Origin: Antedon mediterranea
Lineage: Eukaryota > Echinodermata > Crinoidea > Comatulida > Antedonidae
Direction: 5' to 3'
Assembly: GCF_964355755.1 (NCBI RefSeq)
Contig: NC_092675.1
Coordinates: 25,956,412 to 26,020,411 of the forward strand
DNA length: 64,000 nucleotides
Shown here: positions 9,001 through 43,878 of the stretch, in pieces
Position numbering within the stretch: the stretch's first letter is position 1
Layout: the number at the start of each line of letters is the position of its first letter
Made by a program: the position numbers and the translations under genes
The notes under the pieces: generated by a model
Seen by the model: only the letters and a program-made list of their open reading frames with translations
What the model was told of the DNA's origin: nothing
Databases searched by the model: none

Positions 9001-10879
9001 TAGTAGAGAAATATGTGAAGAAACTATACTGTTACATAACTATTGTAATGGCAACATAATCATTCTAATATAGGGATTAAGGATGTAATTTTGATGATAG
9101 TTATTATATGAATATGATTTTGATTTGATGATTATGACAATGTGATAGTGTTTATAAGGATAAATATTAATATATATAAATATTTATATTAACAGGATAA
9201 CAGAATAGGATTGGTAAATATTAATTATTAATCTTTTTTTTTTTCAAATAGCTGGTCATTTGGAATTATCTTGTGGGAAATTTTAACATTTGGTAAGTAT
9301 TGAGAATTATGCATTATTCATCTGTTTTCAACAATAATTATTTTGTGAAAAAAAAGTACAATAAAATAAATATATATTATTAATTACTAATTTCTGTTTT
9401 AATTTTAAATTGTAACCTGTCATTATTGTATGTTTCTTAGGAAATAAACCCTACAAGAATATTCAGTTGGACAAGTTACGAGGTCATCATAAGGAAGGAC
9501 TTCGACTTCCTAAACCTTCCACCATTCCTTCTGACCTGTAAGTACTGTATTTAACATAGCAATAAATAACTCTCAATTAAAGACCAAACTAGGAAATATA
9601 TAACAGTAGTCCAGAAGAACATTATGTGGTTTAAAACCTTATCAATAACAATGGAAACATCCTGCCAAAGCTTCATCTAGATTGGTTGTCAAATGGCAGC
9701 ATTCAGCAAAGAGGATATTATACAGTTTTATATTTGAGTTTTCATGAAGTAAAACGTTTTCTTTGGAACTTTAGTATTTTTCATAGTTTTGTTCGTTTCT
9801 GAATTTAGATCGACATTGTTGTCACAGTGTTGGAAGCTACAACCTAAAGACAGACCAAACTTCGAATACATCAATAATCTACTAGATAAACGGTGTGCTA
9901 ATATGGAATTACAGGTTGGTTTCAAATTTCGAAACTTTTGAATAATAATATATATTCAGATAATATTCAGATAATATTTATTTAGATAATAATGAATGAA
10001 TATATACAAAATAGAAAAAAGATATTAAAGTGAACATAGATAAAGCAGTAATTGGTAGTCATTATTATCATGGATCCCTTCTAGAAGTTAAAAACTTGTC
10101 TCGTAGGGACCCATAACAAAACACATTACTAAAAAAATAAAAATAACCTAGAATATATAATTATATAATTTAGGATAAAAAATTACAGTATAATAACATA
10201 ACTAACATCTTCTTTATAAAAATTATTTAAATTATATTTCAATAGTTTCATGATAATTATAAATGAAATAACTACCGATATTGGTAAATGAAAAAAAAAT
10301 ATGTATACATAAATTATAATTCCAGTATATATATAGTATATACTATATATACATTATATATAGTATAGATTAAAGATTGCAATAATAAACAACAACTAAT
10401 ATTTTGTGTAAGACATAAATAGTATATGAGTATAAATAATGATAATAATAAATTGACAAGTTATCAGTTACACTTACTGCTATGTTGTTCAGTAGCTGTA
10501 TTATGAATGAGTTTTTTTTATAGTAGAAGAGATACCTTCAGATCCCTTTCCTATGGGTTTCCGGCATCATTTGTTGAAAATGTCCCCTAATATGAGTGTT
10601 CCAAAGGAGCAGTCATATTGTAGTATACTCATAATTACCAGCATGACTCGATCTTTAAGAAAATAATTAGTTGTAAGTTGTTAAAGGTTTTATTTATTAG
10701 TTCTATATTTTAATCAATTTTCTCTTCATTTGTTTTTTTAGAATGTTAGTAAAAGAAAGGAGGTGTTTGCTTCCCTCACTAGGATTGGTTCAGCAAGTGA
10801 TCACATGACTGCTTCTCACATCAAACAACTCGAACACCTAACAAATACCAGTATTCAAAATGTAATTGTTAGTTGTTAG
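1..10879 (+). CDS. EGF/FN3 receptor with tyrosine-kinase-like domain, likely pseudokinase; 5' partial
   Basis: A type I membrane receptor entering the window mid-gene. Coding exons read: 1-138, 353-623, 945-1058, 1240-1353, 1931-2044, 2723-2833, 3352-3468, 4333-4485, 5048-5338, 5677-5876, 6240-6441, 6592-6699, 7102-7292, 7854-7979, 8867-8937, 9252-9292, 9441-9537, 9809-9914, 10742-10861 (or to a stop at 10877-10879). All phases agree. Domain order: proline-rich repeats, six six-cysteine EGF domains (five on their own phase 1-1 exons), a Ser/Thr-rich linker, an FN3-like domain containing RRKR, a membrane helix (LFVMLALVLVILIIFVV), then a kinase domain. Kinase signs: VKKLR (beta-3 Lys), AELEIV (alpha-C Glu), LVFEYCELGRL hinge, CDYG in place of DFG, WMAYE in place of the APE segment, WSFGIILWEILTFG, and CWKLQPKDRPNF. 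The catalytic loop reads KHCLGSHN instead of HRDLxxxN and the glycine loop is degenerate. It may continue into the ECM29-like exons downstream. I recognise no named orthologue. Confidence 0.82.
1387..1656. mobile_element. pogo/Tigger-like MITE carrying a nested element
   Basis: The ends are inverted: CAGTTGAGCCTCTATATGGGG on the left, and the complement of the right end reads CAGTACGTATAACCTCTATT. CAGT plus ACCTCTAT is typical of pogo/Tigger-type elements. It sits in an intron between EGF exons. No coding capacity. Confidence 0.5.
1452..1593. mobile_element. Small inverted-repeat element nested in the 1387-1656 MITE
   Basis: The termini TTTTAAAGCTTG and CCAAGCTTTAG are inverted, and GGGTTGGCCATA directly repeats on both sides (1440-1451 and 1595-1606). 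The interior carries CATTGGTTAAAACGC and the right end CTAGTGGAAACCAAGCTTT, which recur near 17460-17600 and 48925-49042. Confidence 0.4.
4808..4948. mobile_element. Palindromic MITE, family A, copy 1
   Basis: Ends CTCTGTCTACACTAAAAC and GTTTGATAGTGTAGACAGC are inverted; the core holds CCCATATATGGACATGATGA. Ten copies are present in the window. Lies in a receptor intron. Confidence 0.8.
8081..8240. mobile_element. Palindromic MITE, family A, copy 2
   Basis: Left end GCCTTGTCTACACTATCAAAC, right end TTTGATAGTGTAGACATAGC, with the family core CCATATATGGACATGATGAT. In the intron between two kinase exons of the receptor. Confidence 0.8.
8572..8716. mobile_element. Palindromic MITE, family A, copy 3
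   Basis: Opposite core orientation to copy 2 (ATCATGTCCATATATGGGCA), right end TTTGATAGTGTACACAGAG. Only about 330 bp from copy 2 in the same intron. Its right flank is shared with copy 9. Confidence 0.75.
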
Positions 10880-11253
10880 TTATAGATTGTAATGTTGTGA
10901 TGGTGGTAAAAAACATGATGATGATAATGATGATGGGGTTGATTGTCAACGGTTGTCACTGTAATTAAGCGCCTAAAGATGATTATACAAATATGATTGA
11001 TATTACAATGAAAATGATAGAGGTGATAGAAAACATTTTTGTCCAGTGTTCATAATGGTGATTTTGATGTTGTTTGAAAATGTCAGTGTTGATTGAATTT
11101 CAGCTGTGAGAAGGAAGAGGTGATTTCAGTTCACAATGTTGTTTGTCAATAATAATTATACTGGTTACATTGTCAATGTTACAATGATTTCTTGATGATT
11201 AGATTAAAGATTCAATACCTGTTCTTTCATGTAATTGTGATTATATTTTTCAG

Positions 11254-14200
11254 TCTTCTCCTGCTAGTCGCCTGATGGCAGTGCAGTATGCTGGTACAGT
11301 CTTCCCAGGGAATCATGTTCCATCTAAGTTTGTACTTCTTCTTGCCTGTGGTGATGAGTAAGTATACTTTTCTCTTTTACACTTTCTTTTCTCTTCTATT
11401 CATTTCCCTCTATTTGACATCTTTTTCCTCTTCTTTTCTTTTCTTTTTCCTTGTTTCTTTCAATTTTTTCTACTTTTTGCTCTTCCATTGCACTCTGTCT
11501 TTCCTTTTCATTTTTTTTAGCTTTCTTTTTTTCTCATCCTTTAGTTTGTCTTAGTTCTATTTTCTTCCTTTTCTTTTCCTTTAATCTTTCTTTTCTTTAC
11601 TATCTACTAAAATTTAATTGTTTTTTTTAATTTTTAAACTTTTTTTTATTAGGAATGATACAATACGTAGTGAAGCCGTAAACATTCTCCGTGCTCACAC
11701 AAAGGTCAGTGAAGCTGACATAACATCCCATCAGCCAGCTGGAACTTACATGCCATCATTTCCTGAAATGGCATTGCATCTGAGGTCAAAGGTAACAGTA
11801 AGTGGGAAATGTGGTGACTTTCAGAACAGAAATTGGAAAACACATTTCAACTGTTTTAATTTACAATTAACTTTAAAACAATTTAAACTGTTAAACATTC
11901 AATAATTGGTTGGCATGTGTTTGTTTATCTGTCCTGTCGGTTTTGTTTTTAGTGTTAATGACTGCATTATGAGGATGATTTGTTTAATTGTACGTAATTT
12001 TAATTCTTTTTGAATATTTTTCTAGGCTGCAGAAGCCATGAATGCTCCAAAGCTGAAGTCACAAGGCCCTCTTGGCACCTTTACAATCCCATTCCATCCT
12101 GGGTCTTTTGAGAAGGTAACGCATTATTGCTTGCGCTTTTGTAATCATCATTCATTATTATATTCTAAATTATGAAATTAGGTTAATTAATAGTTAAAAA
12201 TAAATAACACTTTATATTTTAAAATCTCAACTTTATTTTCAGAGGGTAACCCTCTGGCATCCAGAATGACAAACGTACTTAATTAAATTAAACTATTTAT
12301 GTGCTTTCTATAAATTTAATTTATCTTTTCTAGATATCGGTTTACTTACGAATGTGCTTAGCTTATTCTGCCGGTGTTACGCCAAATGTAAGCACCATCG
12401 AACAAAGGCAGAAACAAGGCCCTGCTCTTTATACATACATTCAAGGCCTTCTACAGAACTATAGTGGTAGTCGACACAATCCTCTCATGACATACCTAGG
12501 CCTACTGAGACAGTATGTATCAGCTATAGGAGGTGGGGCGGCTATGCTGCGTCTACTAGAACTAGCATCTATTGCACCGAGTAAAGTAGGGCCTGAGTTT
12601 GCTACCAAAACTGAGCATTTAAAGGTAGGTTTTTGATGTAGTACAAGAGTAAGTTGAGTGGCCGTGCGGTTAAGACAGTGGAACCGTAATTACATAGCCA
12701 TAACATCGGCAGGGGTTCGAGGCTCACTCACTCCATGGTTCTGGTGGTAGAACGAGTCTTCTCGGATAAGGACTATCAACCGTAGGTCCAGTGTACACAA
12801 CTAGCTCGTGTGCACTTTAAAAGAACCTAGTACATCTTTCGAGACGAGTAGGGGGTTACCCCGGTGTATTAGTACATCACAGCCACTGATCACCAACTGG
12901 GCCCTCTGGGAGACCAGTCTTTGACTGAAGAGGTCGCCCAGTATAAATATAAAACAAAACAAAACAAAAACTAGAGCAGCACCAGTATTTTCTAATTTTG
13001 TAAAGAGTAATTAACATTCATAATGCTGTTTTGTTTATATTTCTAGGCCCTAGTGGAGTCTACTGATGATAAAATGAGGGAATATGCAGCACAGATGTAT
13101 GGTATTGTTGCTTGCTATATGGAGAGGCCTAGCCTCAAGCAAGACCTTAAACATTTGATACACTCCATTGATCATGACGTAAGGGAATTGGTTATAACTA
13201 TTGCTGAAAGTTTACTTTACACCTCACTCAATAGGTTATTGGTTGGTTTGTGCATATTGATTTGTTAGTGAATTTTTGTTTTGTTTTATTTTGTTTCAGA
13301 ACTATGCTACTCAACATGGAGCCATATTGGCTCTTGGCTACATGATAAGTAAGCTGATCGAGAAAGAGAATAAGGATGGCAAAAGCTACATCCAACGTGA
13401 CAGAGACAGTCTTGATTCCTCAGAAGATGATGTTTATAACGATGCAATGAAAGCCATTGGTAAAACATGTTTTATTTTAAGAGATTGATTCTGTCAAAGT
13501 GGTGTTCAAATAGAGGAAAACCTGTAAAAATAAATGTTAAAAGTGTATAAAATTATTACAAACATTCTTTGGTTTTGTTATAGGGGCTATGCTTGAATCC
13601 ACCAATAAAGATTTAGTTTCTGCAGCCTGTGATGCCATTGCTGCTGTTGCCTCTCAAGGGGCACTGCCACTCAGTGGTGGTGGTAATGGTAGCTTCAAGG
13701 GCAAGAATAAGGGCAGTACATCAGTTACTAAGCATTATGTTGTGAAACAACTGACACAGTTGATCAGTAATGAGGGCTTTGCAGAACAGGTAAGAGCATT
13801 TAGGATTACTTCAACATTTTGTTTAAATGCCCCTCCTTTTGGATACCACTATTTAGGGTATATATGTTTTAACACTACCCCTATTATATTATTATTATCC
13901 CGAAGATATCCCCAAAATTGGGCATTCATTTTAACTGTACTTAAAACTGACCATAAGTTGTACTAGTATTAAAAAACTATCTTGGTTTTGATGATACCGC
14001 TAATTGTTTACTTTAGTTTCAAATACATTAAAATTATTATTATGTCTTAATATGTTTAGGTAAAAATAAAAGCTGCTAGAACACTTGGCAATCTTATTGT
14101 CGGTGAAGCAGATTTCCCATACAAAGAAATTGTAATGGAAGTATTAACTAATACAATTGAGGTGAGTAAATGTATTTGATCAAAGAGTCACAATAGTACT

Positions 14201-15820: not shown

Positions 15821-17060
15821 AACAAGACCAAAGTTATCGCCCATTTAATGATGAAAACCCCACCAAAGCAAGAGTATCTAACTTATAAACATTTTATTTT
15901 TATATGTAATTTTAATCATTTTTCCACCAACTTTTCATTTATTTTAGATTGTTAATTATTTACATATATAAATCCAACCTGTTTAGATTTAAATTTAAAG
16001 GTTAAAATATAGTAAAAAATAAGGAAAAAATTGAAACTGTTGGAACTTCAATACCCAGTATAGACACAATTTATTTGAGCATTGTAATGTTTGTAATTAT
16101 ATAAAATTGTATGTAGTTTTTATAACTCCTGACAAAACAATATTAAAGGGAAACCTCGGTCCACAGTGTTTATTTGTATACTGTATATGGGATAAGTGTA
16201 GTTTTTTTTTTAAAGATTTTTTATATTCTCAGGAAAATATTTTAAATACATTTTTATTGGTGTCTTTACAATATTGCAAATTTTACTTCATATTCATATT
16301 TTTGTATTATCAATTATAATATGATTTTTAGCTTTTGAAACATTCCATAGTGTAAATACAATTGGTAGGTTCATTTATTTTGTATTTTTAATTGCAGTAC
16401 TTGTAGAGAAGTAGAGGTTGTGTATTTTGTCAGCTGATTATTTATAATATTGATCTGATACATTTTATGTATGTACATTATAACCAATTTTAATCAAATA
16501 TAATCACCTGGAATCATAATTAGGCCAAGAAACTGGAAAAAGAAGTCGGTTTTACAGCGTCTAAATTGTACTGTGATGTGGTATGCTGTAGGTTTTATAG
16601 AGCAAGTCTTCCCTGATGCTTCGATCAATATACCTTACTTTAACATATTAATTTCGCCACTTTGCACTTTCGCTTGTCTAGATTTAGTCAAAGGAAGTAT
16701 AATATTTAACTAAACAGATGCTAGTACTTAAATAGAGCATAAAATAAATGCAGAAAATGAAATTAACAAATTAATAAGTAAATAACATTAGAACTGATAA
16801 ATAATATAGTACATTGTTTGGTAATGTTTTAGAATTTAAGGAAGGTGAGAAACATTGTTAAAGGGACATATTTTGCTGGCTGACACATGCTGGTCAGAAT
16901 GTTAAGTATACTGTAGTGTAGCATCTCATTTTATGCAAAGTAAATAAACAATTATATATGTTTTGTAATATGTTTTAGTTATGGTTTTATTTTGTAACTG
17001 TTCAAAAAGGGCATTAACCAAAATAATAATTATTAACAGTATCTTGTATCAGACTTTATT

Positions 17061-18554: not shown

Positions 18555-21500
18555 TTACTCTGTAACATCCCCTTGATCCTTCAGTTCTTGTTCAGCCTCT
18601 GCTTCTGTTGCCATTTCCTCCACCTCCTCTTCAGGTATGGCAGGCAAGCTAGAGATGGCCTTCCTGACATCTGCAGCATGGTCTCTCAATGGTCTGTCTG
18701 GATCAGCTCCCATCTTATTCAGAGCATCCAACAATTGACCACGTAAATTATTAGTTAAAAGAACAGTCACATCAGCACCTGGAAGTGACAGAATGAACAG
18801 ATAATTAATGTATACAAATAATTAATGTTTATGAGAAATGTGAAACCAGTTTCATCTGGTTTCAATGTAGTAATAAAAAGATATAGTTAATGAATTACAA
18901 ACTAGTGTAAAACCTATGTATATGAGTTGAAGGAGAAGAATATTTCTATGAGAAGAATAAATCAATTCTATTTAAGAAGGCGGAGACGAGTTGAATAGGA
19001 CAGTCAGAATTAAAAACGAAAATATATCAATGGTATGAAAAAGTCAGCATTAAAGTGTTAAAATACTCACTTGATAATCTAGCAACCATATCATCTATAA
19101 TTTTTACTGCTGATCTTCTAATAGCTACATACTTAATAATAGCTGAAATAAACAAATTGAGAATATATCACATATTTTGGTGTATAAGCTATATTAAAAA
19201 TAAAGTCTGAACTTCTTTATATACAGGTATAATAATAGGTATAGGTATATAATGCTATATTAAAAATGATTAAGCCTGGCATTGTACATAACCTAAAATA
19301 TACAGGAAATAATGCATTATTTTTGGTACCATCCAAACTTACCAAGTCTGCTACATAAAACTGGAACTATTTTGATCAAAATTGAACTAAGAACGACTTC
19401 ATCTTCAGAACTGAGATTACCTTGTAAATATACCAAACTGAATTGAAAAAAAAAAAATTTTAATTAAAAAATCTTTGTTTAGTCACCCCTACTTACAATC
19501 AAACGTATATTTCCAATTGATATATAACTTACCGTTGTAGGAATTGTGACATTGCCTTTAATATATGCACTTGTATCTTGAAGGTACTGATTTCTACACC
19601 AGCACACATTAAACCACAAAACCGTTCATGTTGAATTTCTAATATAGTAAATATAAAACAAAATGTTAGGTAATAAAGATATTAGAAAAATAATTAAACA
19701 ATAATTTAAATGAATTTCCTTCATAAATTTCTCAAATAAAATGTATGTAGATAATTAAGATTACGAATAATGGAATGTACCAATATTTAGTCAACCAGAT
19801 ACTATTGGGTATAGGACTAAACAGTTTTCAGGAAATCTCCATTTCAGAATGAAACTATATACAAGATTTTAGAAAATTAAAACTAGTTTTGTGAATGTTT
19901 GAGTTGAAATTTGAGTTGATAGAAAACTTTGAGTGTGGTTCATATTGAGATCAATAAGCTTACCTTTAATTTTGGTATATTACAGTATAACCACTAAAGT
20001 GTTCCTTGAATTGGGGTTCTTTGGTGTTTCATGTGAAATTGAATGAATAGGGGTTTCCTAAAGAAGAGGTATTATTTTTAACAATTGTATAGCATCATAC
20101 AGTACCTTGAGTGTGCCTTGTTTTGGGCCATGCTTTACCTAGACTTTCATAGGCAAACTCCTCAAGTATCAACTGCTCTTCTTGTGCTTCTCTGTCTTCT
20201 TCTTCCTCTTCTTCTTCATCATCATCTTCCTTTTTTGTCTGTCATTATTTTATTGTTGAAAACACAAATGTTAAACTTTTTGTATAAAAGGTGACTATAA
20301 TAGCATAACAAATTTTCATATATTTATTACAAGTACAAAAAATAAATAATAAATTGTGTAGCAAATAAAACACAATTGTCTTTACTGATGAGTTTATGGC
20401 CACTGGAAAAACAACATCGACTAGAGCCTTTATATATATATAAAACTCCACTCCCAAAGACTTTGTTTATGTAGAGCATCTTGTGTTTATGTTTTTCTTG
20501 TGAATGGGAGTGCCATATAAAGGATAGTGAATGAATTTACTTATGGTTATCCTTGGCAATTTGCCTAAATATAAATAAAAGGATTGGTAAAATCATTCTG
20601 GCAGTAGAGACTAGTAAATATCAACTTCAATATGGTTGTTTATTAAACAAAACAGACATACAATAATAATCATCAATAGTTTTCATTCACAAATGAAACA
20701 TTGCTGGTTTATACAGGACATACATACATACATACAGTATATAATTGAATAAGTAAATAGACACTATCCTACCTTATCTATAACAGGGTAGAGTATCTCT
20801 GCCAAGTCTGCAAACCTATCGATATCATGCGTTAGTAATATAGTGGACATACACTGTAAGGCCTCCACCTTGTAGCTAACTTTCTCTTTTTTACATTCCT
20901 TCAACAATGCTGCTAAGATATCTTCCATGGTTGGCTGATCTGATGATGTATCACCCTCAACTACCAATGAACCTCTAAACAAATATAATACACATTATTG
21001 TGACAACTGAAATCTATCTGAAAAACCACAGTAGTAAAATATACACAGTATATAAAAAGATAAACTAACGTTCCAGTTTAGTACTGTACTCAAATTAAAT
21101 TCAATTATATTGTAGAAGACACTAATGATGTTCACTTACTTTGATTTTGTACATAAGGATGTTAAAGCCTTCAATAACTCTTCCTGTGGATGACATTGTT
21201 AAACATAGCAATCGTAAATTATCAATTGATAAATACCAACTTTAATACAATGTATATCTAATAGTAATATTGCATTTGAAATGACATTTTGAACGTCAAT
21301 TAACTATTGAAAATCTAAACAGATTTTAATAATAGTTCGTTCTTATATAACACAAAGCAAGCTCTCAACGCGTTGCACATTTTAACCTATTTTAATCTAT
21401 ACATTTACAAACATATTACATATTATTCTTATATTATATTATTATTTTGTAAGCTTTGAAATAATAAAGATATCTGCAAATCTAAATTATTTCTGCCTAC

Positions 21501-24500
21501 CTTCCCATCCCATGTTCTACCAGCTAAGCCCTTCACAACCAACTTCAGTAGCTGGCCAAGATGTGGTTGAGTTAGGCTTGACCCTAGCTTACTAGCTATT
21601 GTACTTATTGCTCTTGCGCCCTGTGCTTTCCTGGGCCAGGATTGTGAAGCGAGTGCATCTTGGGTAATTGTGACAAGTTCTGGTAGATAAAGGCGAATGC
21701 CTCCCTCGGTGCCTGGTGTTGAATCAAGCCAAATGTCTTCCCATATAGACTCCACATGATCAGAATTTGCTGTTTGTTTGGAAAAATAAAATGTCATAAA
21801 AAACAACAGTATAATCATGTAGAATAAAATAATAGTACAGTATTGGGTTTTATTTATATTATTTTATTTATGAATACTTTTAAAGAATAACAGGTAACAC
21901 TCTAAAGCTCCGTCTACACTAACTTTATGTGACAACAAATACAATGTGCCCATATGGACATGATGATGTCATATCACCATATTTGGGCCTATTGCTACTA
22001 TATTTTGGCACATCACACTTTGATAGTGTAGACAGAGCTTAATAGTGTAGACAGAGGTTTAGAGTTTGAAATGGAAATACATTCATAACAAAAAATTAAA
22101 AGATTAAAGAAAACATATCAAACCTTTTTGTGGTTTTTCATGCATAGCTAAAAAGGTCAAAGGTAAAGCTACTGATGCATGATTCTTCAAAACATCTGAA
22201 TTGCTCCGTGAAATTGCATGAAGTGTCAAACCACAAGCATCTCTCAGTGAATCATCTATGTAACAAATTTGAAAAAAATGTTATCATAATTATTATTAAC
22301 AGTACATATTTATAGATACATATACACAGCAACAAATATTTGAAAAAAACCATACCATCTTTTTCCAGATACCAGGATTTAATACGGTTAAGAAGTTTTT
22401 CAACACTACTATCCTTTGCTACCTGAAAAAATAAATATTAAAGTTATTTCCGCAGAATGCATTATAAGATCCACTCATTTCTAAAACAATATTTTATGCT
22501 TCAAAGACTTTTTCTTTATATATATAAAACAAAGCAATACCTTAACTAGATGTCCAATTGCGGATGAATTACTCTTCCTGACAGCTGCGCTACGGTCACT
22601 GAAACCAGCTAGGAGACTGCTTAGAATCTTGCCTATATCAACAAACAAAAATGCATATTATGAACAGTTTTGAACCTTTGGTTTAAACTAATGATTATGG
22701 ATGACCATAACTCAAAGCTAAGAAATGGTCAATAATCTGTGTAGGTGCCGTATGTAATGGCAATGACAGTTTTCTGTTTCTTGTTCTCTTCAGCAGCTCC
22801 TGCACTTCCTGATGTTGTACTCCTTTTGTAAAGCCACTCTGTCAGGCTGGACATCCACAGTACACTTTTACTACCTCTTCCAATTGATGTTTCCAGTCAA
22901 AGGCCAAGTTCTTGATGCTGTCTTTTCTGATAATGTACTGTACAAGGGCAATGATGATATTAATGAAATAAGTCTTACTTGCATATTCTTCAAGATCTCT
23001 CGGACAATGGCTGCTAAGCATCACCATAAAATTAGCTGCCCCTACCTAGAAAGAATTCAAAATTAAGTAGAGGGAGGAAACAGACTTTCTTTACTGTACA
23101 GTAAGTCATAGTCAACACGGAGGAGCATCAGTATTAAGCATTTTCATAAAGCTTGACTGTCTACACTATCAAACTTTTATGACAACCAAATGTAATGTGC
23201 CCATATATGGACAACTTGACGTCACATCACTACCATATTTGGGCACATCACACTTCTTGTCAAACTAGTTTGATAGCGTAGCTTAAGAATGTGAAATTTG
23301 ATCATATTCATTTCAGTTTTAAACACTATTTATCACGTTGAAACCACTTACTTTTGTATTCACTCCTACTCCATACTTGATGACGTCAATAAGTCTAGGA
23401 ACAAGCTCTTTTAACACTTCACTATCGACATATTTTGTGCACTATAATAAACAGAATACAGAGTTTTTAGTAACTACATAGTTGCAAAAACAAGCAAAAT
23501 AATGTGAGGTACACATCATACTCTATATTTTTGCTGCATAAATATACGGTATACAAACATATTTAACTCACCAATGTTATGGTTTCCATCATTGATGAAG
23601 ATTTTGCAGCTGCTACTCGGATATCATCAAGCTTTTACAAAGAAAAAGTGTAAAATAGATGACATATTATTGTACATTAAAACATATAAACACCTAATAT
23701 ATAAATACCTAATGTACAGTTTTGTCACCTTGACTCTTTTTCCACTTATCATTATTAACACTTAAGCTCTCTCTACAGGAAACTTTATGTGACAACAGTG
23801 TGATATGGACATGATGATGTCATATCACTACCATACTTGCGCACATCACACAAATCAGTTCATACTTCAATATCAATATTTCTAGTTATTTAATTAGTAT
23901 TTCCTTTCTCTACTAACATAATATACATAATAGTCATCATCATATACTATAAATTACCTTTTCAACAACTCCTTGGTTTGCACTGACTCGTGATGATAAA
24001 TAATTCAAACGGTTATCTTCAAGTCCACTTAAAGATTCAAGCAATGCAATGACCAGTAGTGGGATGTGTGGTGTTAGCATTTTACCAGCATTCTTAGCAA
24101 TCTTTACAATCGTATCCAGGCTAATACATGAAAACATGAATTTATATAATTATAAAAAAAACAAGGCCAACAGCCATTAAGTCGCGTGCTACAATGCATA
24201 GTGATACCGGACCGACAGACAAACAGACCGACAGACCGACAGACAGACGGACCGACCGACATAGTGAACTATACTGACCGAAATTACTGAACATGTTTAA
24301 AAATGTTGAAATGTTTAAAAACATTTATATTTTTTTAATTTACACGTGCGTAGCCTGTCACTTTTGACGTGCTCGTATAACGTAATTTCGAGTTGAAAAG
24401 TAAGTCAAGAAAACAGAAATCGGGCAAGAAGAGTGCGCAATAACATTTAACGCGCAGTGCGCGCGCAAAAATCTGCGCACTCATGGCAATTTTGTAAACG

Positions 24501-27500
24501 CTTAAAATTGCCTGAAACGTACTCTTATTTCATCGAAAATAAATTTTGAAAATTTTAAGCGCGCTTACGCATGCGTTACATGCGCTACGCACGTAATTGT
24601 ATTGCCATATGATGATTTATGCCCTGAAATTTATGAGTACCAAATTTTATTTAATTGTGATTCATGGTTGTGAAGATATGATTACAAACGTGATTTCGTT
24701 AAATCGTGCGTAGACCGCGTAATTTTTTATTGCGCACCGTGAAAACATAACCACATCGATTCCTGGCCATAAGGAATATTCTGTGAAAAATTGACTTAGC
24801 TAGATTAAAATCATAAAGCGATAAAACGCATAGTGATACCGGACCGACAGACAGACAGACCGACAGACAGACCGACAGACAGACCGACAGACAGACCGAC
24901 AGACAGACAGACAGACAGACAGACCGACCGACCGACATAGTGAACTATAGAGTCGCTTCCACGCGACTAAAAACTATGTTACAACTAAATAACAATAAGT
25001 AGTCAAATACACTAAGTTTAACATGAACATTTAATGCACTACAGACGGTTTTATGAGAAGTACCTTAATCTTCAGGAGCTTGGCTATTGATTGTTTATAT
25101 AATATTTTAGAGTGTATACTGTAGAGGTACTGTAATCTTTGTCTGTTCATATGTATTTAAGAGTCAGAGTTTAAACTGGCAAATTAAAAAAATTGAAATA
25201 AATAAATTAAGGACACCAAACCATGGTCGAAAAACTAATATCGACAACAAACTAACTTACCAAATCTGTTTAGCCTTATCAATTCCACTTGAAAGACCCT
25301 TGAGTAAGCACGGTAAAACAGATGCAATGGCTTCCACTCCAAGCTTACCTCTATCAACATCACATAGTTTGATTGACACCTGTCATAAGTAATAGTATAA
25401 AATCAAAAAAAAAAAATACATTTTACTACAGTGTAAAATATATATCAAATGTTCCTTCTAATAATAAATGATTATCTAACTTTATTGTGGAAAACTCAAT
25501 GATATTATTTTTATTTATTTAAAATCATTTTTCGGAAAAAAAAAATGCAATGTTTTATTGTACCTTACTAAGTTGTCTACAAGCACCCTCAGCAGCCTCT
25601 CTCACCGTTGCCTAAAAGAAAACAGTATCATCACAAGTTTGGTGAATTCCAGGCCAATGATCTAGATTTCTAGAAGTTGTGGTCGTGGTTCAACCAGAGA
25701 AGTACTTTTTTTGCAAGTATTCTCAAATGTTATTATATACTCCTTAAATTAAAAAGTATGCTGAACCTGTTGGGTTTTTGTGTTTACAAATCATATACAT
25801 ACCATACTATAAGCATAATTAAAAAGGAAATTATAATTTTTTTAGAGAATTTTCCAAAGATTACAGAAATAATAAAGTGAAAATCATGTACCTTAATATC
25901 ATCAATGACTCTTAAACATGTACTCCATAATTCTGGAAGTTCACCAACCAAACTATCCAAATCTCGATTCCTCAAAAGATCCACCATTGCTCTGCAGCTA
26001 GATTCACGATTCCTCCACTGAGGGTTAGTCAAGTTTGCCTGAACATCCTTCAGTATCTCCAGTAAATACTGGTCTGTCACCTTCTTCTCGTCGGTTACAA
26101 GAGCAGACCAGATACTGGTCATAGCTTGCTGGATCTGTCTGTTAGGGTCGTACTGGTATCGGTACAGCCTGGGCACTATCTTTGGTAAATGCACCGCTAG
26201 TTGCTCACTGGCTTGCTTGGCAATTGTTCCAAATCCAAATGCAGCCCCCTAGATAGTAATACGATCGAATATCAATTATAAATCGACAATAGTTACCATT
26301 GTAAATGAACACTATTAATTATTTGAAAGAAATTAAAAGTATAGACACTTCTCAGTTTATTAATTACTGTATATCTACATGAAGCAATTTCAGAATTGCA
26401 ATTTTAACAATTTTATGCTTAATGGGGGAGATACGAGGTAAAATAATGCTAAATATATTTAAAATACCTTTCTAGAATTCCACATGGCATTGTGACTGGC
26501 CAGATGCATAAATTTGTACACCAAATCCGGTTGGTTGAGATCACTAGCCAATGAACAAAGCTCTTTATAGGTTGAAAGGCCACCTCTGAAATACATAATG
26601 AAACATTTGAGTTGGTCAAGCTATTTATTTATTATTTATTTTTTATTTATTAAATTTTCTGCCATTTACAATACAAAGAAGACAACAAAAATATAAAAGG
26701 CAAGGAAAGACCACCTATGCTAGTTGGTGGCAGCACAATATTTGTTAGGCTTAAGTATAAGTGAATGTTAACCTACCCTGTGGGGTTTTTACCAAGAGTT
26801 CCCTCATCGAACAGCTTGGTATCATCTGTCACGGTCTGCTTAGCTCTGGAATAAATTTAAAAAAATGCAAATTCAAGTTGTAACCGAGTGAATTTGCACT
26901 GGATATTGAATTTAACTAGTTTTGGTGTAAAGAAATAAACAGGTAATGTGATTTACACCTTTTCAAGGCTAAATCCAAAAATAACATTTTTTCTCCATTT
27001 TACCTTTTACCAGTCATAAGTCGATCCACTAATGCAGTAACCAATTCTTTGCGGCCCTCTTCACTGCTCTGCTCATAAACAAGACTTAGGCCTTTGGAAG
27101 CCACATCCTGTGTAAACTCTGTAAAAAGATATCCATCATTACTGTTAGTTTATACCACATTCAATATTTTGTTAACAGTGGCTGCTGTAAATGATAACTT
27201 ATTTTGTATATTTGTCATCTGTCTTCACTGCCATTATCTTTCTGATTATTGTTTCCCTTAATTAATAATTAATTTGTTTATCACTACATTTAACACAAAC
27301 AATCATAATTTATGAACATATTACCATCACCCTATTCTTATCATCAACATAATTTTCAACATTGTTATCATATTTGTTACCTTAATGTAATCCTTGTAAA
27401 ATACTCACCACTGTTTTCGCTCAGCAAGTCCATAAAGGCCTGTTGTAGTTCCTTAAATCTGCACTTTAATGCAGGATGGGCACCACACCTCTTTACCATT

Positions 27501-30500
27501 GACAACAGCCAAATACAAGCAGCCTATTAAATACACAAGAAACAGACGTCATTAATACTTGAAGAGAGATTAACAGTGGTGTAACTGCCCTAAAAATAAT
27601 GCGAGTGATATTCGTTATTCAAGTCCAACACCCAAGGTGCTCCTTTATTCCTGTTTCTTGAATGTGAACCAGATTACTAAAACAAAACATAACAATGACC
27701 TATAAATGCATGTCTAGCAATATATGTGGCTCCTTAAGCGTCAAACTGAAAAGTTTTGTATTTAAGTTAAAACAAACAATATAAAAGACGATCCCTTAAA
27801 CTAATTAAAAATGCAAAACCGTGTCGTCATAGCAACGGATAACAAAATCCTTGCGGTAAACTCCTCCTCCTACAACGACGCGACATGCCATTGACATTGT
27901 ACAGCTATACGTAAATCAATTAAAATGATCACATGAGCTATAAAGTTTTGCGAAGATTATCATAACTATAGTATCCAGGTGCTTAATGCAATGCAGTAAC
28001 TTTAACAATGAATTATTAATACTAATACTTAGTAAATAATTAAATTAAGGTACAACAGGTCAAAGCCATATCTCATCAATATATATAGGCCTAGGCCTAG
28101 CTAGGTAACATAACCGAAATTAATGGCGTCTCAATAGAACTTGGCCTAATAACATTAAATCTGTATGAGTTATTGATCAATAAATGTAGCGGAATGCAGC
28201 TTACCGAAAATAGCAAAGTCACCCGCTATCTGCAGTACATAAACAATTCAGGTAAATATCAAAAATTAAACAATATATGTCAATATCCTATAATTAAAGT
28301 CACTAGCTGTGATCATACATCCTCTCCTCCCTAATGCAAGATACCTCCTCACATGGTCCTAAAATGACGTCATTTTCTTAATAATGCGCCCTCTCTAAAT
28401 ATAAACTAGTTTGGGACCAAACAAGTGGTTTTTCAAAAAAGGTAAAAACTTTGTGGAATTTCCAAATCAACTGCACCGACTATCTTTTATCTACCTGTTT
28501 CTTATGTGGATTCTCGCATGTGACATATTCTTTCAAGATTTTTACTAAGGTCCACTCCACTTCATCTTTTGCTGCTTCTTCCACAGTAAGGTCAAGGGTC
28601 AGTTCTTCCTGTCTCCAGACATCTCTCCTGGCAGGACAATGGACTGCTAATGCTGCCTGGCTAATAGCTTCTCCGACAGTAAACTGTAGTTCTATCTGCT
28701 TGGTCTAGGAAAACAAATTCGAAGAGTACAGTAATTCAGTGTTTTTAATCATGGTAACATTTGCAGGACACTGTCTTCGCAATAAAAGAAGAAATCATTT
28801 CAGATGTTCTGCTGTGGTAGTCAAAACATGGGCTTGAAAAACAAGGAAGACCAGCACCGCATACATTGATGTACTAGAGATGGATACTGGTATGCAGAGA
28901 AATTAACTGGCTGTCACAATGGCTTATAGGAAGTTATAGAGGAATCTAGTCATAGTTAGAGTAGCAGGGCTCTTAATATCAAATAAGAAACTTTCTTAAA
29001 ACCAGAAGTTTATTAGTATACGTAAATTATTTTCCAAAGCTTACATTTGCAGTTTTCATCAGTAACATCAAAGCCTCTTGTGTATGAGGAAAATCAGGAT
29101 CTCCGATTGGTATAAAGCCAAGGTTCTTGCAAGCTCTCTCCTTTAACTACAAGACAAAAATTGTTACATTAATTTAGTATTAGTTAAATACATTTTGAAC
29201 AATTGTATCCAAATATTACACCACTGGTGCAATATCATTAAATTAATTGCATTTTTATTAAAATATTACTTTTAAGTAAGACAAAATTAATTATCAGCAG
29301 TCACATTACATAATGATTAAGCTTTAGTCATTAGGATGCAACAGAACAATGCAAACATTATAATCATCTAAACTGTCATTTGTGATTGGTCAATACTTCG
29401 CATGAAGTGGGGTTCTAGATGTAATATTTTATTACCTACCATACATTAGCATACTAATTAAAGTGTTGTGTTAATAAATTTACATTGGGGCAGATTTAAC
29501 ATTTTTTTTATCTATGCAGCTACTGTATTTTATTTATACTAATTAAAGTACCTTATGTGGGATTTTGATGGAGTAAAGTTTAGAACTAAGTTTCTTGACA
29601 ATAGAAAACAGATTTATTTCATCATCTTCATTCCCCTCTACTTTCATATCTTCTACTGCCTCATCTGTATCAATGATTTTATCTTTGTTGATATCATCTT
29701 TCTTGCTATTACTCTTTTTGGCTAATTGAGTTTTGCTTGCTCTTGGAACTGGGAGCGTTCCGTTGCGGCCAATTTCACCAATGGCTGTACAGGCACCTAG
29801 ACATAATATTTCTTGGTCTTTATCTAAAGTTTTTGCTGCAAAATGAAATAAATAGATTGAATGATTATTGCTTCTACAAGTATATGAAAACAATGGGACT
29901 GACACACCCAATGGTTACTATGTCTCAACAGTTCCCTTAATGGCCACATAATCATTTTTATTTGTCATTGATGATTGGCTGTACTTATAAATCATCACAA
30001 TTTTATTATTATTTATTACCATTACTGTAAATAGTCACTGTATATATTTTATAATCAATATTATTTTGTACAAATCAATGTACCAACACGTTATTTATGG
30101 TTATCATTAATATGAAAATATATTACGATTGATTGAATAAAGTCCACAAGAAACTTTAATTTTATATGCTCCTTATATTTCATTTTTCAAAGGTGGGACC
30201 TCTGTCATATATTAAAAAAAACTTCAATTTAAAGAAGTCAAACCTATAAAGACTACAGCTTGTTGTATAACTTCAGCTAGACTCTGTGAAGTAGCAGGCT
30301 CATCATCAACTTCCATATTTTCCACAACGATATCTTGCTTTCTGTCTAGTAGATATCGCCTACCAATGGTGTAGCCTAAGCCTAAAATGGCTCCATGCTG
30401 TACTTCAAGACTCTAAATTTAACGAAAATGATATTGCAAACACTATATAAATGTTACATTATACAGAGATAAATAGATACTATAACGGTATAGCCATTGT

Positions 30501-33500
30501 GAAATGCATTGAGCAATTTTTTTTGTACATACTGTATATAAAAACTAGTGGAGAAAAAAAAATGTGATGCGCCCAAATATGGTAGTGGATGCTTAAGTAT
30601 GGTAATGATATGACATCATCATGTCCATATATAGGCACATCACATTTTGTTGTCACAAAAAGTTTGATAGTGTAGACAGAGCTTTAGACCTGCATTTCTA
30701 TAGAAATAAAAATTTGATTTGTTAGGGATCTTTTGTTTATATTATTTGTATGGATGATAATAGGACTGAAATAAACAAATGTAATTGATTAATGCTTTGT
30801 ACATAGCTATGTTTTTCTGTGGGTTATAAATTCCAGAATGAAGTGTTTGCATTATTAAGTGAATTACTATTAAAAATTTACCTTTGTTTTTGCCAGACTG
30901 AGCATATCAGTAATGATGGCAGTTAGTTGTCTCTCATCAGATGCATTAGCCACGATTGACATCAACTGAGCTGAAAGATCACGAATGGCCTCGCGTCCAG
31001 ATTTCATAAGGTTCTGAATCACGAAAAAGATATCATGAATTTAATATTTACATTCAGGAAATAAAAACTGGTCGTAAGGGTCACAATACAGTAGTCTTTA
31101 TTTATTTATTTATTTACTTAACTTTTTTCAAAGGGTAGTTCTAAAATATAAGTAAAGTACCTGAAATGGGGGTTGTTTTTGCAATATATGGATACAGAAA
31201 AATAAAGATAATTTTTTAATTTTTATTTTATTTTTTCACTATTTTTTTTTTTTTTTTTAGAATGCTGAAAATATTGTTTTCGTTTACAACATAAGAAAAA
31301 TGGTTTTCAATACTTGGAACGCACAATATAAAAATTAATTGAAAATTAATTAATTAAAAATGAAAAATTAAATAAAAAAATGCAATAAAAATGAATAAAA
31401 AGGTAAAAACCGCTAATACCTTGATCCAGTCAAGCTTCTTTAAAAACATATCAGCAAACAGATCTGTAGCAATTGAAACGATCTCTACAAGACAGTACAT
31501 TGCTTGAGGTTCCGCAGACACCTTTAAAAGCTCCATGATGAGGTCGACATAATTAATTAAGGTCCCTCGTCCAGGCCCTTTGAGCATCTCCTGAACATGG
31601 CAGTACAGACCAGGGGCTTGATCTTGCATTTCCAGAGCATCCATTACAGGGGTCACACCTGTCTCATAAACTAGCGTTGACCTCAGGTAAAAGATGATCT
31701 CGTTAAAGACAATTGGTGTAAATGGAATAACCATTGTTCCAATGGTGACTCTAGACTTTCCTTTAAGTCGTAATTTAGCCTGTGAAATAATGTATAAGAT
31801 TTTATACAACTACCTACATTGATAATTCAATATTAAAAAAAGAAAGACAATCTGTTACATTTATTGATTCTACAAGATGATTAACCAATCATTTTTTAAA
31901 GTAAATGAAACCAAAAAGAACTCTTAAACGTGTTTAAAACATTGACATATTTTATTCCATTATAACAACTCAATTCGGTTATTAATTTTTGTCAGTATAC
32001 AATACAAGAACAGATTTCACAGGGCAAATGTGGAGATATTCTAGTCAACATAGGAAAGTGCTGGTTTTTGTGAGAAATATGCCTGAAACTTATGTTATTA
32101 TCTTATTTTAAGACACATTGCCAAAGATTATCGTGAGTGAATTTGTTCACGGTCCTAATACACAGGAGATAATCTCTTCACAAGACAAACACACAAAATG
32201 CTCTACAATTGTTGTTTTGTCATAAGAACAAATCCTGACATCCAACAGGGAGTGGCAGTCGAACATGTTAATCATTAATCCACCCCGATAAGATTTGTAG
32301 GCAAGTATCTCACCACCAGGCCCATGCATTCACTTACTTGTTGGTATGTATAATGAGCCATCTCCTGAAAACTAGGCATTAAATCAGAACCTTTTGGTGA
32401 GTCACTCGGTAAGGACAAATCATGTTTAATCCCAACATGCACTGCTTTCAAACACATCTGACGAATATCTTCTTTGCTGAAATAGATTATCAACATAATA
32501 AATAACTATAAAATATATATTTTGATATCTCATTTATGCATGCTATAAGTATAGAGTTATATAAACTAGACCTGAACATGTTTTAATTGAATCTTGACTC
32601 CTGGACTCACCTATCAGCGGTGTTGAGAAGTAGTACATATCTAGATGGGATATGATTAGAGGGAAACACTTGAGCTGCATACTGGGCAGCAGCTAGTCTG
32701 GCTTGTGGCTCAGCCTGAAAATACAAAATGATGGTTATCCTTGCATTTTGATATTCTTTAGTGCTGCCCATTTGAAATTAAAAATGGAACTCGATAAATC
32801 AGAGAAATAAATACATTGTTTGGACACTTAGCACTTAACATAGTTTTAAATCATTTGTCAGATTTGCTTCAGTATGGGAAAAACGATACAAGAAGTGCAA
32901 TGGTGGAAAAAAAACCAGAAATAGAACATATACTTGCCATTTATGTACCGCTAAGAAGGAATGCAGAGAGCAGACTAGGCCTAGGCCTCACAGTACAGTA
33001 GGTGGGTTTAATGTATATAACATATAATTCATTCATGTTTTGTATTTGTTGAATGGAGACAATATTTCATGAGTTGAAATACTGCTCTATTTATCTTGGC
33101 TTCACCTCGTTGAATAGAGCAGTCAATTTTTCAACTCATAAAAAAATCTCACCTCAACTAATAAACATATATATATTAAAAGTAAAAGGCCACTTTGACA
33201 CTTATGTTTAAAAAATCAGAACCTTTCAAACACAATAATACAATGGAGATAATCAAAACCAGACAAAAAAATTTAATCGAAAAAGAATTTAAAAAATATG
33301 TATCTGAAATAATATCTTCTTAATAAACTCATTTAATCACATTAGTAGAAATCTCATTCATTCTCAAATTCAATACAAATATTCTTTACCTTTTCTGCAT
33401 TAGTCATAATAATCGCTTCCATCGCCATGAGATTAGCTTTTGCCATGTTTTTAAAAGAATCGGCCATCATGGACAAAGACTCTTGGATATGCATACGCAT

Positions 33501-36500
33501 CTCTGGGTCTTCCTATAAAACAAAAAACATACACAACTATAAAAATATAAAAGTATCTCGTTTAATAAAAATAATCGGTGTTTAAACGGTCTGATGCAGG
33601 TACTGTATCTTGTTAGTACAAATATTAATTGCTTCGTAGGAACTATTTATATTCTGGACAGCAATTTGACCTCCTGCTATGCTTCATTGCTTGTCAGATC
33701 TGAAAGGTCATGGTTTGTCTGGCCTAAGATGACCTAGGCAAAGTTTACAGCTTTTGCTTTCTGCAGAAGAAATCAATTATTTCAGGTGACGAATGATTGT
33801 ACACTGCATAGTTCATGAGAGGTCTTTTGTCATCCAATGAGAAGCATTCTAATATCGGTTTGAGTCTTCAGGAGGGTCCTGCGTAATCAAAACCATCGTT
33901 ATGCTATAGATACTACTCGCAGCAATCACTTGCAATTTGACATTTCTAGTGTAAAAAAACGAATTGAGTACCTTGCACAGTGAATCAAAGAAGCTCTGTA
34001 TTATTGAGATGTCATTTGTAACTAGTTCTGGCAGCCTCCTGAAATTATAGAAAATGATAGGTAAACTTTTAACTCAAATAGGTGTAATTTACTCTCTATT
34101 AATATTAAAACATATTTTCACATTTGACACTGCAAAGGCCAATTTACAGTAAACGGTAATTGTAAGCGGAAAGCCGCATGACTTGTCCCATTTACACAGT
34201 GCGCGGAGTTCATGAGCGGTGTGACGGAAAGTAGGTGCTTGTAGACCTTGAGACTACTGCATGTTGCAAGCACGGCGCTGGCTTGAACTAGTCTAATATG
34301 ACTGACTGTCAGTAGGCCTAGCATAGTAGCCTACCACATACAGGCCTACGTTTAGAAGGACTTGTTGTCTAATAACAGGTAACATAGAATTATTTCCTAA
34401 AATTATCTCCTAGAATTACCTTCTAGATTATCTTTCGAGACTTAACCTTTTATTATGGGTTGCTTTTAAACAGGAAAAACATATCACAAAATAGATTTAA
34501 TTATAAGAATTTCATTTTAATTACTTTTGCTTACTTTGATAATTTAGCTACTGCTGTGTAGGCCAGTCCTTTCTGTTTGCTTTTCTGTGGGAAATAAAGT
34601 ATTTTGTATGCATGTTAGTAATGTGAAATTATTTGTTTGTAACAAAAGCTGGATATAGATATAAACAATATTCTATATGTTTTTAATAGTTGTATATACT
34701 GTATATACTCACTGTGATAGTTTGTGTACCTTCTATCATCATTGGCATTAGTACTGGTCCCACAGTGTTCAAGCTCGCCTCACTGCTGTACGTGAACACA
34801 TGGTGTACAAACTGGAGGCCCATAAGTTTTAGTTTATCATGACTAGTTTCTCCACTAACACATTCAGAAATCACCTGTTTACAGTATCCAGTAAATACAA
34901 GATAAAAATTAAAAACTATAAACCCATTTTATATCTTTTCATATAAAAGGAAGATCAAAACAACATGGATGGCAAAAATCTAAAAGGAAACAGAACTTTT
35001 CACATGCGGACATATACACATGCTTGCTCAAAAATGTTCACAAATACTTGGCAAATGTCATTTATAATTTTTTGTGTGTAATTTTTGAATTGTAAATTAT
35101 TTTTAAAATGTTTACAGCGCTTTGGTCTTTGGAAAAAGTGCTATATAAATCACTATAATAATAATAATCTTCTTTATTCTGTATTTCAACTGAACAGTCA
35201 CTGACGGCCTGGTGTCCTCAATCATGAGGACGGTTAACATAACAAGTAAGTATCTAGCCTTTAGTAACTGATGAGTATGGTTGGTTGCTTCCCTTGACTT
35301 GAGTAGGTATGGGAACAACTTTAACTTGATTCTTGTTGCCACTGCTGGTCGTTTGTCATCAGCTGGCATGTTTTCCTGAAATAAAAGAAAATCCTTGAAA
35401 CATTAATCCTAATAAATACTGTAGTATATTATTACTGAAAAAAGATATAAATAGATTCAGATTCGAAACAGATAAATAAACAAATAGAATAAACAAATAA
35501 GAGTGTATTTACCACTTTTGTTGTAACTTCATTGCCAAGAAATAAAGTGTAAAGCTGATCTATCACTTCAGAATCATTCCAGTCTACCTCACTAAAAATA
35601 AATAATAATATGATAAAAATTGGTGTCAAAATATAAATAAAAATTGAATTGAAAATTCAAAAGAAGTAGAACATTTTGTACCATTTATGTTCCAGTCTTC
35701 CGTAACAGAAAAAAGATAAAAAGAAATTTAAAAACAAGTTGAACATTTTTGATATTGTATTCCTATTTTCATGCTTACCTCTGAAATCGTTTAATTAAAA
35801 TTTCTGCCCCTGTTACTACTCTGAAAACAAAATTAGAGAGCATAAATCAAATTATGAAAAAAACCAATTTAATAAATTTACCATTGCAATCTACCAAATT
35901 AAAAAAATAGTTATTAATTGTTTTTAAAACAGAGAAATGGTTATGGTAATCTGGCAACTGAGGAGTAAAAGTATTAAAAGCTAACAAATATTTTTAAAAT
36001 CCACTCAGAACATAGAGATAATGTTATAAATACTAGAGGGACAACTAAGTGGCAATGAAGCTAGGTGGTAATTAGGAGGTCTAACATGGCTGTCATCTGG
36101 CACATCTAAGTGCCCATTAACTGCATGGTAGCATATACATTGTGGCTCACGTTTTGAGCTTTGCTTATTATAAGTTGTAGGTCTATACCAAGGTCTCTGT
36201 GAATTTACTCACTTGTAACGAGTGTCTGCTGTAGCCACAATCAAATGGCAAATCACATCTTTCTCTGGCAGGATATCTGCACTTAAAAATTTGACAATAC
36301 CAACTTTCCGCTAGAAAAGCAAATTGATTATAGTTGTTTTAGTATATGGAAGTAAAGGTACCGTAGGAAAATGTGAAAATAAAGCAATGTCTAACATTTT
36401 TCTGGGCCCCATTGATGTTTTCAAGTCTGATATTGTCATAAGTAGAGAAAAACTAGTTTTTGATGCATTTTGAACATTTGTATGCAAAGTTCCTAAAAGC

Positions 36501-39500
36501 ATAAATTAAAAAGTTTGGATTTCTAAAGATTTCCAGCAAATGGTGTCAGCCAAAAAAGTATTATTAAAACAAACTACCAATTCAATATCCTGACCATCTG
36601 GAATACGATCTCCAATCACTTTCTTGAGTGAATTGACACTTAGGCCTGGTGGGACATTCAGTTTTACAGTGTTGGTAGCCTCTCCAGCAGTAGCTGAGGC
36701 AGGTCTTACTGGTTCAACCACACCACCTGTAGATGTTACTGGTACTAAACTGTAAAGTAACCAAATGATTAATGGTTATACACACATAATGTTTTAAAGT
36801 AAACTGAACTGTTGCTGCTGGTAAAGTCTTTTAACTCTCAGGTTAAACAAATAACAATTATTTTTTGTTGAAGTGACAAATCGCAACTAACAACATGGTT
36901 CTCATCAGCACATTAATTATGAACCACTTCTAGGGATGATGGCCAAATTGTGACAGAAAACTACATAATTTTTATAGAACAATAAACATAATAAATTAGA
37001 TTAAACAATGGCATAAAAACAAAAAAAATAAAATGTTACCAGTCATCTTACCTGAATGTGTATGGCAATAAAAGATAGTCAAACATGAAATCCAGCATTA
37101 GTTTGGAAACCTCTGGTTTTCCCGATACCGGAAATAGAGCCTTCTTCTTGTCAACGTCTCTAGGCATCTCAATATTTGGCAATGCTGATACAATCATTTG
37201 CATAAGGCTGGAAAAATAATTTAAACAATAATTAATCAAAATCTAGTATTCAACTTTAAATACCAAAATCGGATTTGGGCTGGGGTTGTGTCTGGAAGTT
37301 AGAATGTGTTTAGTGTCTCATATCCACCTGTAGTATATTCAATTAATAAATTATGGTTGGTTGAAATAAATTGTGTACTTACAGATGTTGCTGGTGAGTT
37401 GGTTTATTATCTAAGCACTGGATAAGAGAGCTCACAAGAGCACCTTTTTTCTCATTTTGTAAACGACTGTAACCATCTTTTAAATACATAATTGTAAAAT
37501 TCTGTAAACAAAAATCAACTTAATTAAATACAGTATTTGTATTATATATGGTTAAAACTAATTTGTAATACTAATAATATTAAATTATTTCAGGATATAA
37601 ATTGCGGTGTACCACAGGGTTCAATTCTGGGGCCTCTACTTTTTATTTTGTACATTAACGATGTATTTAATTGCTCAAACTCGTTATCTTTTGTTTTATT
37701 TGCTGACGACACAAACATATCTGCATCTCACGAAAACTTGGATACGCTCATAGAACTAGTTAATGGTGAACTAAAAAATGTTTCGGATTGGTTCATGTGC
37801 AATAAACTATCAATTAACGTTAAAAAAACTAATTACATAATTTTCCGCAATCAGCGAAATCCAAGTAATTTAGAGAATGTAAATATTTATGTCAACAATA
37901 AAAGAATAGATAGAGTTAAATCGACTAAATTCCTTGGAGTACATATTGATGAATTTCTCACATATAAAAACCACATCAATGTTACAGCTAGGAAAAAAAA
38001 AAAAAAAAATATCTCGATATGTAGGCATACTATATAAAGTAAGACATTTTTTACCAACCTATGCTCTCTGGACAATATACAAATCACTCATTGAACCAGT
38101 ATTAAATTATTGCAACATAATATGGTGTAGCACATTTCCAAGTTATTTAGATGAGTTATTTAAACTCCAGAAAATGGCATTACGAGCTATAACATGGTCA
38201 AAGTTTAATGATTCAATGACTGAATGTTTCTATAAATTTAAACTTCTTAAAATTGCGGATATCAATAAGTACCAAATTGGGCTTTTCATGTATAATGTTA
38301 CTACTAATCAGGATGTGCGTTTTTCATCGCTCTTTATTAAAAATGGTTCTTACCATAATTATAATACAAGATCTAAAGACAAAATGAGACTCAGAAAACG
38401 TAATCGTACTTCTACTAGTTTTACTGTGTCATGTGTGGGACCCAAATTGTGGAATGACTTGAATTACGAACTACAAAGTACCAAATCAATATATATATTT
38501 AAATCATTGTTTAAAGAACATTTATTATCATTTTACAAATAATTTTAAAAATAATACTTGTTGCAGGATTTAGCTTTTTTTATTATTTATGTTTTAGTTT
38601 TTAGGCTAGTTTTTAGGGACATAGGGGGACACAACTAATCAAGCTCTTTTGAGTTTTTATGTGTTTCCTTTTCATCTTTTTTATGTTCTCATATATTGTT
38701 GTTGTATATTTTCATGATTGAGGATGAATAAAGAATATTTGAATTTGAATATATATCAATAATATTACTAAAGACAATTCTAGAGTCATATCTTTTGAGG
38801 CTTTATTCATTCAATAAGATTATGTTATTACATTATTAATAAATAAAATAATTAAGAAAATAATTCAAATTGAATTTATTAACCATTAATGGGATCATTT
38901 CTAGAAATAACTCTTTGCCATCTACCCAACACTGCACTTCGTAAACAAACAGTAAAATAAATGGTCACAACTGATTATTGTTATTGCTATACAAGAAGGC
39001 ATCTTTTAAAAAACGATTGAGTAATTATTGATTTACTTAAAAACAGAAACACTTACTGTCACAAAAGAGGTGTTAGCTGGATCCTTATACTGATTAAGTA
39101 ATGACTCCATTGGTAACTGAACCTGTGGCCTGCTCTTTAACCGTTTATTGATATGTGCCAATAACTGTATAACCTGTGGAAATACATATAAAAAAAGATT
39201 GACTTTTATTGAATAGATTTTTATGTAAAGATATAAAGATATAATAACAATGTTGGTGTTCAGAATTTGTTTTGTTTTAATGTGGATGGATGTATAGTTG
39301 AATATTTTTTTGAGTATTAATCTTCAATTACATTATACATTTTCTAAAATACTTTCTTTCAGAATATGTAATCTATGGTTATTGTTATTAAACACGACAT
39401 TTGACTTCGTTTTACACAGCACCAAATATTTATTTACCTTCTTGCGGACTCCAGCATGCTTACTTGCTAGTTTAAGTAAAACCGGTGGTAAAAATCTGTT

Positions 39501-43864: not shown

Positions 43865-43878
43865 AACTACCAGATATT

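Follow-up and report, generated by a model that had tools for sequence, protein, structure and literature searches.

The catalytic motifs of tyrosine kinases centre on the Lys of VAIK, the Asp of HRD and the Asp of DFG, and ROR, PTK7, RYK and ErbB3 are receptor pseudokinases that act as scaffolds; we know of no ECM29 segment or other long HEAT segment in any of these four. ECM29, also called ECPAS (KIAA0368), is a proteasome adaptor and scaffold that contacts the 26S proteasome at Rpt5 and alpha7. It binds both the regulatory and the core particle, its precise Rpt5 site ‘has not been mapped’, and roles in the membrane placement of proteasomes have been suggested (PMC4908598). Silencing of ECM29 in B cells is reported to shift proteasomes from the centrosome to the cell cortex (PMC8155528). 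Here we describe a locus of the crinoid Antedon mediterranea, contained in a window of 64,000 nucleotides (C6:25956412-26020411 of a genome that spans 354 Mb and 18 contigs; positions below are those of the window unless marked otherwise), in which a receptor gene with an EGF/fn3 ectodomain, a membrane helix and a pseudokinase domain is followed on the same strand by an ECM29-like block. We assign a probability of about 0.5 to the reading, drawn from sequence, that the two encode one fused receptor-pseudokinase-HEAT protein. To our knowledge, a receptor architecture with an ECM29 segment is known nowhere else, and no receptor-ECM29 protein was found in open-licence papers, with queries that were in some cases very broad.

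The receptor gene has the layout of a tyrosine-kinase-type receptor, with an ectodomain, one membrane helix and a tyrosine-kinase fold (Pfam, hydrophobicity), and its EGF, fn3, membrane-helix and kinase-like parts were already recognized in a first-pass annotation of this DNA. Within the window the ectodomain (plus-strand exons 1-138, 353-623, 936-1058, 1240-1353, 1931-2044, 2723-2833, 3352-3468, 4333-4485 and 5048-5338) comprises a Pro-rich stretch, six EGF-like repeats, a Thr/Ser-rich linker and one fn3 domain, as identified by Pfam in the spliced model; EGF and fn3 domains also occur together in the ectodomains of Tie receptors. The exon at 5677-5876 encodes the membrane helix MLFVMLALVLVILIIFVVTVM, the most hydrophobic 21 residues of the receptor model, and exons 6240-6441, 6592-6699, 7102-7292, 7854-7979, 8867-8937, 9252-9292, 9441-9537 and 9809-9914 encode the kinase-like domain, which scores 183.3 bits with PK_Tyr_Ser-Thr and has EGFR, VEGFR2 and FGFRs as its top PDB matches (among the best 60 of 1287). 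When this domain was aligned to EGFR with HMMER, HRD was found to read KHC, with loss of its catalytic Asp, and DFG to read DYG, and because of these two changes we refer to it as a pseudokinase; the Lys (in VFVKKL) and the Asp of DYG are retained. By analogy to ROR, PTK7, RYK and ErbB3, this membrane receptor, whose catalytic loop is degraded, would be expected to dock partners. It shares its ectodomain, single membrane helix and kinase fold with receptor tyrosine kinases that have FGFR/VEGFR-like kinase domains, but differs from them in KHC for HRD, in its long repeat-rich ectodomain and in the possible HEAT block after the kinase. The receptor query used for the Pfam, genome and PDB searches and for the kinase-tail alignment carried one wrong junction residue and included the exon at 10742-10861.

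Judged by eye, the receptor gene extends 5′ of the window, and the upstream stretch (L001) holds further EGF-type text. Two repeats are also present in this upstream DNA (L001 1870-6228 and 8697-9821): one has a 45-base unit, which by eye looks rich in Ser, Asp and Glu and is arrayed in tandem about 103 times, and the other a 249-base unit, which contains a Pro-rich exon and is present in about 4.5 copies. Within the kinase domain, the intron 8937/9252 has an apparent GC donor (AT/GCAAGT), and exon 8867-8937 joined to the exon starting at 9252 reads SNIWSFG.

Downstream of the receptor, the ECM29-like block runs from 11254 to 15820 on the plus strand (exons 11254-11357, 11653-11791, 12026-12115, 12334-12624, 13047-13178, 13300-13459, 13584-13789, 14060-14161, 14304-14525, 14778-14837, 15044-15098 and 15729-15820, the last ending in TAA) and contains the equivalents of ECPAS exons 15-24; with the exon at 10742-10861 added, it comprises 13 exons and is read as the equivalents of ECPAS exons 14 to 24. 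The family profile ARM_ECM29 (PF23702) scores 186.9 bits in the block, against a cut-off of 27, and 154.4 bits in the canonical segment, and a score above that of the canonical copy would be unexpected for a decaying duplicate. The block is open over 590 codons, in which about 46 stops would be expected (P about 2e-21), all 13 exons have positive codon scores, and splice dinucleotides are present at the modelled introns.

The canonical full-length ECPAS gene lies in the same window on the minus strand, convergent with the block (40159..18555; 44 exons and 1903 residues in the spliced model). Eight of the 12 block introns match its introns exactly in position and phase; of the others, two have no counterpart, a third keeps the phase but is displaced by ten codons, and the fourth lies where the alignment has a gap. 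The block matches canonical residues ~445-1050 and is ~30% identical over 572 aligned residues, which suggests that the duplication is old. It is thus like ECM29 in its PF23702 domain and in its intron positions and phases, and differs in this level of identity and in missing ~445 N-terminal and ~850 C-terminal residues, with no complete ECM29_N (only the last ~66 of 497 positions are covered) and no complete C-terminal HEAT half. Among the matches listed in this genome there was no close second copy of the receptor or of the ECM29-like block, nor did the N-terminal part (485-residue query) or the C-terminal part (604-residue query, omitting the last ~280 residues) of ECM29 recur, in searches that exons at 30% identity could escape. 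The block had no PDB relative at E up to 1, and the eight weak PDB matches of canonical ECPAS at the same threshold, importins and LAS1L among them, included no ECM29 chain. The canonical query used for the second-copy searches, the exon 14 alignments and shuffles and the ECM29_N comparison contained a few provisional junction residues and was later replaced by the final model. A stretch of one block intron, at 12640-12970, has by eye the look of a tRNA-derived short interspersed nuclear element, and ARAGORN found no tRNA genes in the window.

Between the kinase and these exons lies a bridging exon at 10742-10861, which the first-pass annotation had described as the last exon of the receptor. 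The details given there agree with what we observed: the exon is open in phase 0 and ends at a usable donor (AAT/GTAATT), read-through gives VIVSC and then an in-frame TAG 15 bases past 10861, and an ATTAAA, placed near 11205, is present at 11203. Its assignment to the receptor does not hold up as well, and at odds of perhaps four to one we favour an ECM29 exon, the probable homologue of canonical ECPAS exon 14 (33512-33390, minus strand), which would make it the first HEAT exon of the block. The two exons are 120 and 123 nt long and both are in phase 0 at both ends. Aligned end to end on exon 14, the 40 residues of the bridging exon score 26, the top of 1865 canonical windows, and do so at the register of the exon boundaries; this score was reached by 4 of 20000 shuffles in one run and 1 of 20000 in another, and, among windows compared with exon 14, by none of 299 from the receptor cytoplasmic part, none of 511 from the rest of the block and 1 of 1783 from the rest of the canonical protein. 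The score per residue is 0.65, compared with 0.55 to 3.06 for five accepted block exons. Adding the bridging exon to the first two block exons raises the ECM29_N score from 15.3 to 24.4 bits (19.8 to 52.2 for the canonical equivalents), and in its place nine scripted shuffles gave 16.5-22.4, two hand-typed shuffles 17.3 and 18.6, and the kinase end 19.5. At 0.16 its codon score ties with that of exon 14778 for lowest among the block exons, and it is not equalled by any of 356 stop-free stretches of 120 bases taken from receptor introns.

The following exon (11254-11357) starts, as had been proposed, in phase 0 at a boundary homologous to that of canonical ECPAS exon 15 (32714-32611, minus strand). 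With the bridging exon read as an ECM29 exon, the receptor-to-ECM29 junction moves from 10861/11254, where the first-pass annotation had put it and which would probably be an ordinary internal ECM29 intron, to 9914/10742.

The last kinase exon ends at 9914 in phase 0, at a donor (CAG/GTTGGT) whose score of 7.0 equals or exceeds those of 30 of 71 used donors and falls in the top 2.3% of 3598 plus-strand GTs. Acceptor 10742 scores 10.2, a value that 62 of 71 used acceptors do not exceed, in the top 0.74% of 3240 AGs. Both sites were outside the training set of the splice-site models, which was made of exons picked partly by splice signal, so that the ranks are somewhat flattering. Donor 10861 scores 5.2, at or above 14 of 71 used donors, and acceptor 11254 scores 7.9, at or above 37 of 71 used acceptors; these two are also usable. 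The gap between kinase and bridging exon (9915-10741) measures 827 bases, at least the length of 67 of the 72 introns here. It contains, however, a 500-bp repeat insertion (9951-10450), bounded by a 9-base target-site duplication ATAATAATA (9942-9950 and 10442-10450), whose edges and (TTCAGAT)n end were defined by alignment with eight copies. At least 39 other copies at 97-100% identity are present in the genome (40 of 202 candidates scored), and by its sequence the insertion, probably LINE-like (long interspersed nuclear element), is very young. Without it the gap would be 327 bp, against a median of 312 bp for these 72 introns. We found no ATG first exon joining 10742 in frame at 9945-10700 with a donor score of at least 4.5; two donors in this interval reach that score, one of them within the insertion, and no in-frame path from an ATG leads through either of them into 10742. 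There is no CpG-rich stretch in 9601-11400 (0-5 CpG per 150 bases), on composition only, with no promoter tool applied. The fusion suggested by the first-pass annotation is thus strengthened by the intron-sized gap before insertion, the good splice sites, the lack of an ATG exon in the scanned gap and the ECM29-like bridging exon, although the step itself would lie one intron further upstream.

We propose that part of ECPAS, exons 14-24, was long ago duplicated in inverted orientation and now lies just downstream of the receptor gene. The first duplicated exon would have carried with it the phase-0 acceptor of ECPAS intron 13, and the phase-0 donor of the last kinase exon at 9914 would have been able to use that acceptor. 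A single transcript would then encode the EGF/fn3 ectodomain, the membrane helix, the pseudokinase and a HEAT solenoid of 590 residues ending at 15820. If the predicted splicing across 9914/10742 takes place and the product is expressed, the solenoid may function as a scaffold at the inner face of the membrane in place of kinase activity, and its partners might be those bound by the middle of ECM29, that is, the proteasome or vesicle/motor factors.

A number of observations weigh against this reading. A phase match alone has a chance of about one in three. Over the whole 590-residue block ECM29_N reaches 21.4 bits, just below its cut-off of 22.3, and 3.2% of shuffles equal the gapped local alignment of the bridging exon to exon 14. 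Read-through beyond donor 9914 meets a stop after eight codons (9915-9941; VGFKFRNF, then TGA at 9939-9941), which would give a short receptor form; from the flanks of the insertion it can be deduced that, before the element inserted, an AATAAA lay five bases past this stop. A possible cassette at 10524-10672 (acceptors 10524 and 10527, scoring 8.8/9.3; donor after 10672, scoring 6.4) would introduce a stop downstream of the kinase. Two in-frame ATGs, at 10805 and 11275, lie in a part that had been described as lacking a start codon, and could start a separate protein. Genes in this region may be separated by only some hundreds of bases (seen by eye at 40.2-40.6 kb), and with such close spacing a small gap is compatible with two genes. 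Finally, one non-self kinase match (C4:18949227-18950156; 24% identity) among the 114 of a BLAST search of the genome extends through the bridging exon; placed in the register of this kinase tail, the exon has 7 identities and a score of 19, which is equalled by 6 of 20000 shuffles.

Among the alternatives, that of two separate genes survives best, and we regard it as rather unlikely. The receptor pseudokinase would end at the TGA at 9939-9941, with an AATAAA-type signal shortly past the kinase exon, and a shortened paralogue of ECM29, driven by a promoter of its own, would be translated from ATG 10805 or 11275. The family score of the block suggests a function in its own right, and the block has downstream signals of its own (ATTAAA 321 bases and AATAAA 922 bases past its stop). 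On the other hand, both ATGs have C at -3, which is a poor start context, and a start at 10805 would halve the first HEAT exon. The strong acceptor at 10742 requires an exon upstream, for which the scan of 9945-10700 provided no in-phase candidate with ATG, and two genes would have had to fit around a pre-insertion gap of just 327 bp.

Less probable still is that one promoter gives rise to alternative ends, namely a short receptor, stopping at 9941 or in the cassette at 10524-10672, and a spliced long receptor-HEAT form. The usable donor and the read-through stop are both present, the cassette has good splice scores, and poly(A)-type hexamers occur within the insertion (10024, 10136, 10369 and 10384) and at its edge (10447), so that the insertion may shift the balance between the two forms. 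Such hexamers are, however, common in AT-rich DNA (148 occurrences of AATAAA on the plus strand of the window), and the cassette is poor as coding sequence, at -0.62 per codon in the frame continuing the receptor; it has one 48-bp partial match elsewhere in the genome and may be an old repeat piece.

We consider it improbable that the bridging exon is the receptor's own tail, with any fusion step at 10861/11254. It follows the kinase as the next coding exon, in phase, and the match at C4, to a kinase that carries an HRDIKSPN loop, is a weak indication that leaves a receptor-tail origin open. This match is weaker than that to ECPAS exon 14, where register, length and phases all fit, it was selected after the fact, and by local alignment it is equalled by 342 of 2000 shuffles; three further loci (L002-L004) were viewed as open frames only, without tail alignment. 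As it was picked from 114 matches, the exon 14 reading is still favoured. Taking it into account nevertheless lowered our estimate for the fused protein from 0.55 to 0.5 and brought the receptor-tail origin from very improbable to somewhat less so. That the block is a decaying, unexpressed duplicate, as its missing N- and C-terminal residues might suggest, is very improbable given its 590 open codons, its positive codon scores, its splice dinucleotides and its ARM_ECM29 score above that of the canonical copy.

Several other features of the window were observed alongside. A plus-strand gene recognized by eye (40159-44283) lies head to head with canonical ECPAS, starting ~0.4 kb upstream of the ECPAS start; we take it to resemble a mucolipin channel, and the one open reading frame tried from it matched no Pfam family. 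An ECPAS intron contains a reverse-transcriptase fragment at 37528-38037 on the plus strand (RVT_1, 54.4 bits). A minus-strand open frame at 60658-61311 has a sub-threshold match to the death-effector domain (18.5 bits; cut-off 35.9), and for a 547-codon open frame nearby (58338-59981) Pfam gave no match at E up to 0.01. What looks by eye like a miniature inverted-repeat transposable element family, a short interspersed element with text similar to ‘tctacactatcaaact...gacatcatcatgtccatatatgggcacatcac’, recurs in introns and intergenic DNA at 4800-4950, 8060-8240, 14530-14660 and 17050-17190.

If the fused transcript exists, it would mean that a partial duplication became joined to its neighbour through phase-matched introns, and it would provide a natural experiment on whether the middle of ECM29 is enough to bring proteasomes to membranes. 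We would further suggest, as a doubtful extension, that the protein could be a receptor pseudokinase with a built-in ECM29 solenoid, which would hold proteasomes or the vesicle/motor partners of ECM29 at the plasma membrane or endosomes under ligand control. Were this the case, local protein degradation would be wired directly to a receptor.

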